Source: Prevotella sp.
Lineage (GTDB): Bacteria > Bacteroidota > Bacteroidia > Bacteroidales > Bacteroidaceae
Reading direction: 5' to 3'
Assembly (NCBI GenBank): GCA_017476785.1
Contig: JAFUZD010000114.1
Span: 1 to 39,552 of the forward strand
DNA length: 39,552 bases
Shown one piece after another: positions 1 through 1,753 of this stretch; the first letter of the stretch is position 1, and each line of letters begins with the position of its first letter. The position numbers were made by a program, and so were the translations under genes. The notes under the pieces were generated by a model. The model had not been told where the DNA came from, ran no database searches, and saw nothing but the letters and a program-made list of their open reading frames with translations.

Positions 1-666
1 CACCACGACGATACCCTTCTCACGGGCAAAGCGCACCAGCCGCTCGTAGGTCTCGCGGCGGGCATTGCCACCTGTGGGCATATTGGGATAGTTGGTCCAC
101 ATCAGCTTGACGCGCGACAGGTCCATCTGCTCCAGCTCGTCGAAGTCGGGCTGCCAGCCGTGGTCTTCGCGCAGATTGTAGTTCACGATCTTGGCACCCA
201 GCAGCTTCGACAGCGAGGTGTACGTAGGATAGCCGGGATTGGGCACCAGCACCTCGTCGCCGGGATTGACGAAAGCCAGCGTCACGTGCAGGATGCCTTC
301 CTTCGAGCCGATGAGCGGCAGAATCTCTGTCTTGGCATCCAGCGTCACGCCGTACCACCGCGCGTAGAACTGGGCCATTGCCTCGCGCAGCTCGGGGGTG
401 CCCATCGTGGGCTGATAGCCGTGGGCCGTGGGGTCGTGGGCCACCTCGCACAACTTCTCTACCGTCTGTGCCGACGGCGGCATATCGGGACTGCCGATAG
501 CCAGACTGATGATGTCGTGCCCCTCGGCATTGAGGCGCGCCACTTCTTTCAGCTTGCGGCTGAAGTAATACTCACTGACGAGCGACAGACGCTCGGCGGG
601 CACCCATCCCCTGCCCTTCCCGTTCGAGGGGGCGGTCTGATTATTGTTGTCTGTATGCTGTTCCAT
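1..666 (-). CDS. PLP-dependent class I/II aminotransferase, 3' end outside window
   Basis: Fold-type I aminotransferase, probably transaminating aromatic keto acids given its neighbour. The first 222 codons are visible, from ATG at 666; the PLP lysine lies beyond the left edge. Family motifs seen: AERLSLVSEYYFSRKLKEVA near residue 24, LAIGSPDMPPS near 55, GYQPTMGTPELREAM near 83, NPGYPTYTSL near 143 and TNYPNMPTG near 190. It starts 27 nt after the pheA stop, so the two are probably co-transcribed and share the attenuator upstream of pheA. In Bacteroidales a similar aminotransferase commonly lies next to prephenate dehydratase in an aromatic amino-acid operon (recalled, not checked). The first ~20 residues are a polar, low-complexity extension partly encoded by a C/G-run segment (600-640). 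The aminotransferase class is solid; substrate is inferred, and a diaminopimelate-type annotation is the main alternative. Confidence 0.9.
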   Translation of the reverse strand, partial: MEQHTDNNNQTAPSNGKGRGWVPAERLSLVSEYYFSRKLKEVARLNAEGHDIISLAIGSPDMPPSAQTVEKLCEVAHDPTAHGYQPTMGTPELREAMAQFYARWYGVTLDAKTEILPLIGSKEGILHVTLAFVNPGDEVLVPNPGYPTYTSLSKLLGAKIVNYNLREDHGWQPDFDELEQMDLSRVKLMWTNYPNMPTGGNARRETYERLVRFAREKGIVVV

Positions 667-693: not shown

Positions 694-1524
694 TCAACAC
701 CCCACGTATTCGCCTAAGATTTTCAACTCGCGCGTCAGCGGCTTGATGGCCTCGATTGACTGGCGGTAGCGCGTCAGGCTATCATAGGTCACGTCGACGT
801 AGAACAAGTATTCCCATTCGTGGCCGATAATCGGAAGCGACTGTATCTTGGTCATATTGATTTTATAGAACGACAGGATGCTGAGCACCTGCGACAGCGA
901 GCCCTCTTCGTGGGGCAGGGCAAAGACGAGACTCGACTTGTCTGTCTCCTCCACCGCGCGCAGATGATCGGCCTTGCGGGGCGCACAGCAAACGAGGAAG
1001 CGCGTAAAGTTGTGCTTGTTGTCCTCGATGCCGTCTTCCAAGATGCGCATTCCGTTGAGCCGCGCTGCCTCGGCATTGCAGATGGCTGCCTGACCGCGCA
1101 GTCCCTGCTCGCTGATCCACTGTGCCGCCCCAGCCGTATCTTCGGCCTCCACCGCCTTCAGCTGCGGATGGTTGGACAGGAAGCGGCGGCACTGCATCAG
1201 TGCCACGGGATGGGAGTGTACCTCACTGATGGTCTCCCACGAATCCTCGGGCAGGCAGCAGATGGCGTGGCGGATGTGCAGCTTGTGCTCACCTACGACA
1301 ATGGTTCCTGAGTCGCGCAGCAGCTCATAGTTGTGCAGCAGGGAGCCCGCAATGGTGTTCTCGATGGCCACCACGCCGATGACTTCCGGGTCGCGCTTGA
1401 TGTTCTCGAACACCTGCTCGAACGTGGCGCAGCAGATAAGCTGCAGTTCCTCGCCCTCGAAATACTGGTGCGAGGCAATGTCGTGGAACGACCCTTTCAG
1501 TCCCTGTATCGCTATTCGTTTCAT
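694..1524 (-). CDS. pheA: Prephenate dehydratase with C-terminal ACT domain
   Basis: Cytoplasmic enzyme converting prephenate to phenylpyruvate in phenylalanine synthesis. The 276-residue product has the usual length of the monofunctional type, with no chorismate mutase domain. The catalytic domain spans about residues 1-180, with IENTIAGS (54-61, the PxENSxxG region) and TRF (174-176), whose threonine is the family's key catalytic residue. An ACT domain follows from about 198, with GSLSQVL (208-214); the usual ESRP segment appears as IQSLP (227-231), so phenylalanine feedback binding is plausible but altered. It lies 27 nt upstream of the aminotransferase. A terminator ends 13 nt before the ATG and is preceded by a leader peptide rich in Phe and Tyr codons, so expression is very probably controlled by attenuation. 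Confidence 0.96.
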   Translation of the reverse strand: MKRIAIQGLKGSFHDIASHQYFEGEELQLICCATFEQVFENIKRDPEVIGVVAIENTIAGSLLHNYELLRDSGTIVVGEHKLHIRHAICCLPEDSWETISEVHSHPVALMQCRRFLSNHPQLKAVEAEDTAGAAQWISEQGLRGQAAICNAEAARLNGMRILEDGIEDNKHNFTRFLVCCAPRKADHLRAVEETDKSSLVFALPHEEGSLSQVLSILSFYKINMTKIQSLPIIGHEWEYLFYVDVTYDSLTRYRQSIEAIKPLTRELKILGEYVGC

Positions 1525-1537
1525 TCAACTCTTAACT

Positions 1538-1575
1538 AAAAAAGCTCCCGCTTTCACTCATCGTGAAGCGGGAGC
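1538..1575 (-). terminator. Attenuator terminator in the pheA leader
   Basis: Read on the minus strand, GCTCCCGCTTCAC (1575-1563) and GTGAAAGCGGGAGC (1557-1544) form a 13-bp stem with a single bulged A and a 5-nt loop. Six T residues (1543-1538) follow immediately. This is an intrinsic terminator placed between the leader peptide and the pheA ATG at 1524. No gene ends here that it could serve, so it acts on transcripts entering pheA. Confidence 0.88.
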
Positions 1576-1638
1576 CATATTCTTTCATTTCTTCAATCTT
1601 TCAATTTCTTCGTTTTCATTACAGCTTTCCCGCTTCAC
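1563..1638 (-). promoter_or_regulatory. Antiterminator pairing in the pheA leader
   Basis: GTGAAGCGGGA (minus strand, 1638-1628) lies inside the leader-peptide gene, after the Phe/Tyr codons. It is exactly complementary to TCCCGCTTCAC (1573-1563), the 5' arm of the terminator. The 11-bp pairing and the terminator exclude each other. A ribosome stalled on the Phe/Tyr codons would leave the first segment free and permit antitermination; one that reaches the stop codon would cover it and let the terminator form. Confidence 0.82.
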
Positions 1639-1693
1639 AGTTACCCGTAAAGTAAAAATAAAAGCCGTAAAAGTAAGCACCGTTATGCTTCAT
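1619..1693 (-). CDS. Phe/Tyr-rich leader peptide of the pheA operon
   Basis: A 24-codon gene from ATG at 1693 to TAA at 1619. It begins MKHNGA, continues with YFYGFYFYF (four Tyr and four Phe in nine residues) and ends TGNCEAGKL. Its start resembles the MKH start of the enterobacterial pheL leader, but the Tyr/Phe alternation is its own. It lies between a TAnnTTTG promoter (1722-1729) and the attenuator terminator, and its codons 19-22 encode one strand of the antiterminator. The peptide itself probably has no function after synthesis; the codon run is the sensor for charged Phe and Tyr tRNAs. The frame, composition and exact position between promoter and alternative hairpins make chance unlikely. 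Confidence 0.85.
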   Translation of the reverse strand: MKHNGAYFYGFYFYFTGNCEAGKL

Positions 1694-1721
1694 TTTTCTT
1701 CATTTCTTGGTTTATCGTCTG

Positions 1722-1753
1722 CAAAAGTAATGCTTTTCTGGAAATTGAGCAAA
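1722..1753 (-). promoter_or_regulatory. Promoter of the pheA leader and operon
   Basis: Minus-strand TACTTTTG (1729-1722) matches the Bacteroidetes -7 consensus TAnnTTTG, with TTTG (1753-1750) 20 nt upstream as the -33 element. Transcription would start near 1715, about 20 nt before the leader-peptide ATG. Confidence 0.75.

Follow-up and report, generated by a model that had tools for sequence, protein, structure and literature searches.

What decides whether transcription coming from the promoter in front of pheA enters the gene? In a Prevotella contig, a short reading frame full of Phe and Tyr codons and a hairpin with a T tract separate the two. The window, that is, the whole stretch of DNA that was analyzed (39,552 nt), is the entire contig. 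We consider it very probable that the element between promoter and pheA is a ribosome-mediated transcription attenuator of a Phe/Tyr operon, responding to charged tRNAPhe and tRNATyr. Its parts can be read directly from the minus-strand sequence.

Layout of the leader and its helices

The features are, in the order of transcription:

1722..1753, minus strand: putative promoter (from the sequence), with a −33 element TTTG at 1753-1750 and a −7 element TACTTTTG at 1729-1722 (TAnnTTTG)
1619..1693, minus strand: leader peptide gene MKHNGAYFYGFYFYFTGNCEAGKL, 24 codons plus stop (ORF list; similar leaders in relatives)
1649..1675, minus strand: regulatory codons YFYGFYFYF, the candidate sensing segment (from the sequence; F/Y run kept in relatives)
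1645..1652, minus strand: segment 1 (CTTTACGG), overlapping the last aromatic codon (1:2 helix in the alignment and in per-locus folds)
1628..1640, minus strand: segment 2 (CTGTGAAGCGGGA), 3′ strand of the 1:2 hairpin and 5′ strand of the antiterminator
1638-1628, minus strand: antiterminator 5′ strand GTGAAGCGGGA, with its partner TCCCGCTTCAC at 1573-1563
1563..1575, minus strand: segment 3 (GCTCCCGCTTCAC), antiterminator 3′ strand (1573-1563) and 5′ arm of the terminator
1544..1557, minus strand: segment 4, 3′ arm of the terminator hairpin
1538..1543, minus strand: T6 tract of the intrinsic terminator (from the sequence and the terminator scan, L081)
694..1524, minus strand: pheA, prephenate dehydratase (Pfam PF00800, E 8.7e-53)
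1..666, minus strand: class I/II aminotransferase (Pfam PF00155), cut by the contig end

The coordinates given in an earlier note on this DNA all hold. The promoter and the 24-codon leader with YFYGFYFYF lie in order, as it stated, and its terminator with six T does end 13 nt before pheA (T6 at 1543-1538, ATG at 1524). The −33 and −7 elements follow what we take to be the Bacteroidota-type promoter consensus. A second small ORF, MKKNEA (6 codons, 1683-1703), overlaps the start of the leader ORF in a different frame.

Upstream of the operon there is thus a short ORF rich in codons for the amino acids produced, and an intrinsic terminator lies between this leader and the first gene. The antiterminator is exclusive with the terminator and has its 5′ strand right after the control codons. 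The region folds better than 200 of 200 dinucleotide shuffles (z −4.54). That antiterminator and terminator share 1563-1573, as the earlier note proposed, is upheld: segment 3 serves both, and the exclusive helices are supported on an alignment of 86 leaders (see below). The same note called the attenuator complete; this stands for the 2:3 and 3:4 parts, but it overlooked a 1:2 hairpin in which the aromatic codons themselves take part. In the window it reads CUUUACGG-GUAA-CUGUGAAG (1652-1645 with 1640-1633), with a possible extension of segment 1 by TTTT (1657-1654), and its stability (−7.9 kcal/mol) is far lower than that of 2:3 (−24.8 kcal/mol). In per-locus folds from the last aromatic codons to the antiterminator, UACUUU and the next bases pair with segment 2, recurrently in relatives. 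In class-level leaders the hairpin is less regular, and it was unseen in several (e.g., L173, L177, L184, L189). The set of classical helices 1:2, 2:3, and 3:4 is complete, with the final control codons within segment 1; the 1:2 hairpin is present as a covarying helix of low predicted stability.

Conservation and covariation in relatives

A strict pattern was defined with at least six F or Y within nine residues for the leader, a terminator of −9 kcal/mol or below, and an antiterminator duplex of −10 kcal/mol or below starting 8-18 nt past the last aromatic codon. A scan of genome contigs with PheA yielded the genus set, whose 80 loci carry the title Prevotella, Prevotellaceae, or Xylanibacter in 78 cases; for the family, order, class, and phylum sets, the best pheA matches per search were taken, not random draws. 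Most named loci are metagenome-assembled and the genomes are mutually related; L112 apparently repeats L065. The strict pattern occurs upstream of pheA in 74 of the 80 genus loci (0/237 in dinucleotide shuffles), in 26/32 family-search loci, at least seven of them from the window's own genus (shuffles 0/96), in 21/28 loci of the order search, from other families (shuffles 0/81), and in 22/45 class and phylum loci, from other orders or classes (11/24 in L171-L194 and 11/21 in L195-L215; shuffles 0/135). Upstream of other ORFs, it was found in 0/41 regions of the window and 0/273 regions of the relatives' loci. Single parts do occur there: terminator-like hairpins in 23/41 window and 174/273 relatives' control regions, a loosely F/Y-rich short ORF in 15/273 of the latter. 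The combination is therefore not due to chance, being absent from shuffles and from the regions before other ORFs and yet so frequent before pheA.

The six genus loci that miss the strict pattern lack the leader (L003, L006, L020), have a weak duplex (L021), lie at a contig end (L029), or have a terminator that the scan did not recognize (L072). In L006 and L020, pheA stands directly behind a promoter-like element and the leader is gone; L006 retains a terminator-like hairpin. No leader was seen either in L144 and L151 of the order set or in L178, L179, L182, L185, and L191-L193 of the class set. With pheA present without a leader in these genus, order, and class loci, the leader is dispensable. 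In L117, L118, and L134, leader and hairpin are present with a poor T tract. Inspection by eye gives a leader with at least six F/Y/W in nine residues in 21/21 of L195-L215; L195, L200, and L203 come from genomes outside the window's class, with the strict pattern in L203 only. Among 20 distant pheA matches of other classes, none shows six or more F/Y/W in nine residues, and in several of these a longer frame (up to 736 aa) encloses the match, so that the region read is not always upstream of the gene. A PheA match is missing in 37/200 genus genomes, which suggests frequent loss of Phe synthesis or incomplete genomes.

The promoter element is kept with the leader. TAnnTTTG occurs at most 80 nt before the leader ATG in 76/76 genus-set leaders (1.75/76 expected from mononucleotide shuffles), in 26/27 family leaders, and in 27/40 order-and-class leaders; a TTG stands 18-26 nt above the −7 element in 70/76 of the genus set. 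A lack of conservation in close relatives, which the earlier note had named as a ground for rejection, is thus not what was found: the −7 element is kept, as are the peptide with its codon run, the antiterminator, and the terminator, and the helices covary.

For the covariation, 86 distinct leaders were aligned (alignment A1). Left out were the leaderless loci L003, L006, and L020, L029 at a contig end, L072, which has a leader but whose terminator the scan missed, L077, which is the stretch of L047 again, and any of L082-L110 duplicating named loci; L021 was included though below the strict thresholds. In the 1:2 helix, 98.0% of the cells are paired (46-70% in slid controls), in 2:3, 92.8% (41-49%), and in 3:4, 89.9% (33-57%). 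The covariation score is matched by 0 (1:2), 1 (2:3), and 0 (3:4) of 500 shuffles, all covariation counts being of sequences and not of events. Other measures discriminate less: only two pairs of 1:2 are changed on both sides, as many as 238/500 shuffles reach; in 2:3, there are 10 doubly changed cells (slid versions up to 11), and its further pair types are reached by 45/500 shuffles.

The closing pair of the 1:2 helix (columns 16 and 22) is A–U in 47 leaders, G–C in 34, and C–G, U–A, and GoU in one each, with one unpaired and one gap; it is paired in 84/85 rows with letters on both sides, and at least 13 changes fall on a FastTree pheA tree. In unshifted leaders, this pair joins the first base of a codon with a variable amino acid to the third base of the following codon (often one for Asn or His). 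Since the first base codes and the third base is mostly silent, the mostly silent site follows the coding one.

An additional hairpin, AAGUUG/CAACUU (columns 34-57), is found inside the antiterminator loop of many Prevotella-type leaders. It is paired in 78.6% of the cells (slid 21-51%) and its covariation score is reached by 28/500 shuffles; it was rejected as a core part, the window being without it.

Ribosome position and competing explanations

Transcription would begin near 1717 and the leader peptide would be translated at once. With Phe- or Tyr-tRNA scarce, a ribosome would stall within YFYGFYFYF, cover segment 1, and halt just before segment 2, so that the 2:3 antiterminator could form; the terminator would then be absent, and pheA and the genes behind it would be transcribed. 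With Phe- and Tyr-tRNA ample, the ribosome would pass over segment 2, 3:4 would pair, and transcription would stop at the T tract. The 1:2 hairpin may hold segment 2 until the ribosome comes and may also pause RNA polymerase.

The spacing agrees with such a switch. Counted from the first base of the final aromatic codon, the antiterminator starts after 11-15 nt in 74/76 genus leaders. A ribosome was modeled as a mask from 15 nt before to 12 nt after the first A-site base (a footprint assumed from E. coli), on RNA ending before segment 4, and the values are those at equilibrium. The predicted genus mean of P(2:3) (n = 76) is 0.82-0.85 across the nine positions through the last aromatic codon; it is 0.83 with that codon in the A site and then falls codon by codon to 0.53, 0.13, and 0.01. 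The corresponding values for the window are 0.99, then 0.76, 0.51, and 0.00. The switch point would thus lie, in the model, at most three codons past the last aromatic codon. The family set (27 leaders) behaves like the genus set, and the order-and-class set (40) drops earlier (0.63 at the last codon, 0.34 one codon on). Some family leaders have their stop codon far beyond segment 2, and a ribosome at the stop then leaves segment 2 unmasked; with the ribosome there, the model gives P(2:3) of 0.79 in L123 and a family mean of 0.38.

Without a ribosome, P(2:3) is predicted at 0.99 in the window and 0.68 as the genus mean, that is, readthrough at equilibrium; kinetics could alter this outcome. 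Because of this prediction, and because 1:2 is so much weaker than 2:3, it is uncertain whether 1:2 truly acts as a protector. On the wider reading considered next, this weakness would make an untranslated leader read through rather than super-terminate. In the trp operon, the default without leader translation is the reverse, super-termination.

On a wider and rather doubtful reading, to which we would give only a minor chance, the element would belong to an ancient attenuator for aromatic amino acids (Phe and Tyr, in some lineages also Trp), already present in the ancestor of the window's class and perhaps before it, with the last aromatic codons as segment 1, a polymerase pause that synchronizes ribosome and polymerase, and readthrough as the default if untranslated. 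A pause pattern G−10, Y−1, G+1 occurs about 11 nt past 1:2 in 56/67 genus and 16/25 family leaders, and it fits at 9 and 13 nt too. If this reading is true, the element would directly attest, for Bacteroidota, a coupling of transcription with translation that is tight enough for attenuation.

Attenuation has to be weighed against control of translation, in which the last hairpin would hide the pheA start and a leader ribosome would open it, with no termination. The window by itself is compatible with this, its last hairpin ending only 19 nt before the pheA ATG. The distance is variable in relatives, however: in a hairpin scan that required a T-rich tract after the hairpin, the ATG lies more than 30 nt from where the T tract begins in 51/76 genus, 10/27 family, 11/25 order, and 6/15 class leaders, and up to 320 nt away, too far for masking of the start site in the long-distance leaders. 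Masking was dropped on account of this variable distance and appears very unlikely.

Codon choice bears on a further explanation, a functional small protein or arrest peptide with selection on its amino acid sequence. The tail FAxNCEAGSCV, or a close variant, is indeed kept in most leaders of L001-L080. But synonymous positions are fixed where the pairing requires it, and the numbers of F and Y vary. In 75/75 distinct genus leaders, the last aromatic codon is TTT and the preceding one TAC (also in 75/75); at earlier codons of the same leaders, TTT is used in 104/153 cases and TAC in 151/248, and in pheA in 176/820 and 377/721. The terminal TAC and TTT are each present in 26/27 leaders of the family set; in the order set, TTT in 17/25 and TAC in 9/25. 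The fixed TAC TTT is accounted for by the stem, not by the peptide. The reading frame tells the same: the core GCGGG of the antiterminator is in frame 0 in 63/65 genus leaders with the core and in frame 1 in 2/65, and in the family set it is in frame 2 in 19/27, in frame 0 in seven, and in frame 1 in one. Indels in the 1:2 loop shift the frame with the stem retained (one base more in L013, L015, L038, and L091; one less in L027). In other lineages and in the frame-shifted Prevotella leaders, the same RNA stretch yields VKRE or an early stop. With that stretch read in three frames, the NCEAGSC tail was dropped as a functional peptide, and an explanation through the peptide is even less probable than one through masking. 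Least credible of all is a simple terminator, belonging to a small RNA or to the gene upstream, that senses nothing: terminator-like hairpins are common before other ORFs of the window (the 23/41 regions above), but this one comes with a −7 element upstream of the leader in 76/76 genus leaders, an aromatic codon run, and covarying antiterminator and 1:2 helices.

Operon content, known attenuators, and variant leaders

The attenuator would sense Phe and Tyr jointly, as the earlier note had suggested from the alternation of codons. Two or more F codons together with two or more Y codons are present in each of the 76 genus-set leaders called as attenuators (2-6 F and 2-7 Y) and in 22/25 of the order set. 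These counts, together with an operon making both amino acids, support joint sensing. That the operon makes both, with an aminotransferase as the next gene, had been called likely in the same note, and Pfam agrees: PF00155 is found in the window, and the operon of a relative (L238) has PF00800, PF00155, PF00793 with PF01817, and PF02153, that is, pheA, aminotransferase, DAHP synthase/chorismate mutase, and prephenate dehydrogenase, in this order. Judged by these domains, an operon of this type would make Phe and Tyr and also supply the first step that they have in common.

A covariance model of the 86 leaders has matches in 123/150 genus genomes at E 0.01 (119 with a best E < 1e-6), a rate that is partly by construction since many of the genomes supplied training sequences. 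Fifteen matches that were weak or did not obviously coincide with a listed pheA were inspected. In five strong ones (L226-L230), an aminotransferase comes next (PF00155 in 5/5) with no pheA in between; in the two followed further along, L226 and L228, DAHP synthase/chorismate mutase comes after it, and in L228 also prephenate dehydrogenase. The genomes G116, G072, and G097 have pheA on a different contig, and G029 has no pheA match. The aminotransferase-side matches indicate that the leader stays with the operon even in genomes where pheA has been lost or lies at another place. Four other matches precede pheA (L238 by Pfam; L234, L237, and L239 by resemblance), and at L240 the stretch ends at a pheA-like start. 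The weak matches L231, L232, L235, and L236 (in G143, G052, G098, and G077), with no aromatic operon behind them, were taken as chance. L233 has a terminator relic, without an aromatic leader, before DAHP synthase/chorismate mutase.

At the gathering score, Rfam gives no match in the whole window, T-box and other riboswitches included. At a lax threshold there are sub-threshold matches only, among them Phe_leader (RF01859; 19.5 bits and E 0.59, against a gathering score of 55 bits). The enterobacterial pheA attenuator described by RF01859 has, like the window, a leader with cognate codons, a terminator and an antiterminator, and prephenate dehydratase as its target. The window differs in having Tyr as well as Phe codons, another sequence, and another type of promoter; in the E. 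coli pheA leader, the control codons are for Phe alone. To judge from its anatomy, the element would work as the enterobacterial attenuator does. The sensing of more than one amino acid is known from the thr (Thr/Ile) and ilvGMEDA attenuators of E. coli. The Leu/phe leader (RF01743) is another multi-amino-acid attenuator, according to the part of the source cited (PMC2864571). In all of these, as presumably in the window, a single leader senses more than one amino acid; the set here is Phe/Tyr, plus Trp in some genomes.

Within the same phylum, the Bacteroid-trp motif (RF01692) is listed in the cited part of PMC2864571 and is in Rfam. It is attenuator-like, with a Trp-codon peptide (e.g., L287, MNRMNNNIWWWRNSRFK) in contrast to the Phe/Tyr codons of the window. 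At its gathering score of 49 bits, it has no match in the window or the whole genome and is above the cut-off in 2/40 relatives searched. For Flavobacterium psychrophilum, a conserved element 5′ of pheA, found also in other genera of Flavobacteriaceae and without Rfam hits, is reported together with strong clues for leader-peptide attenuation before amino acid operons (PMC9723704, in the passages available). Gene, phylum, and absence of Rfam hits are the same as for the window, the comparison being by description and not by sequence. Beyond that proposal, as far as those passages go, are the Phe/Tyr(/Trp) codons, the three helices, the spacing, and the occurrence beyond Prevotella, in other families and orders. 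Leader-like sORFs have been noted in B. thetaiotaomicron (PMC7366714, in excerpt). The kind is therefore already known, given the proposal for F. psychrophilum and Bacteroid-trp in Rfam, and the element of the window is a widespread further member of it.

A comparative study of 2004 reportedly mentions Bacteroidetes/Chlorobi. The earlier note knew of no experimentally described Phe/Tyr case in Bacteroidales. In the open-licence literature (most subscription journals lie outside it), none was found, nor any description of a Phe/Tyr element with the full anatomy; the idea of attenuation itself has precedent in the phylum, in the parts of PMC9723704 and PMC2864571 cited above. In 2010, no leader-peptide system was known as shown outside Proteobacteria and Actinobacteria, according to an excerpt of PMC2965389, and a comparative analysis has given the amino acid attenuator motifs in Rfam at its own time a possible γ-proteobacterial origin with very few transfers (PMC3766115, in the part cited). 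A widespread aromatic attenuator in another phylum makes the mechanism broader than that set of motifs. Here is a complete, covariation-backed, and experimentally simple attenuator in a phylum abundant in gut and rumen, about whose RNA regulation little is known. Whether transcription and translation are coupled in Bacteroidota could be tested on it directly, and the 86-leader alignment is ready for a new Rfam family.

Several variants occur among the relatives. Tandem leaders with aromatic codons lie upstream of pheA in L141, L145, L148, L176, and L205; each has its own terminator-like hairpin and T tract in the first four, and in L205 a hairpin was seen for the first leader only. Trp codons are present in or beside the Phe/Tyr run in L163, L171, L172, L180, L186, L189, L197-L199, L201, L202, L204, L208, and L212, loci of the order, class, and phylum searches, as though such leaders responded to Phe, Tyr, and Trp alike. 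Leaders with His codons (e.g., MRFYSRHRVHHHHHHLSG) precede hisG in 5/6 order-level loci (L271, L272, L273, L278, and L286), followed by a terminator-like hairpin in the three examined for one (L271, L273, and L286), and were found in 0/10 genus-level loci; the scan upstream of hisG was better than a pattern search for His-codon runs, which matched 40/40 genomes and was uninformative. Finally, a TGTATG/TATATG-like motif recurs 20-45 nt past the last aromatic codon in relatives. TGTA is present there in 18/27 family and 13/23 order leaders (1 and 3 in the next 25 nt; 6 and 0 after shuffling), and TATG in 16/36 class and phylum leaders (2 in the next 25 nt; 8 after shuffling). The motif is possibly a pause site of the polymerase.
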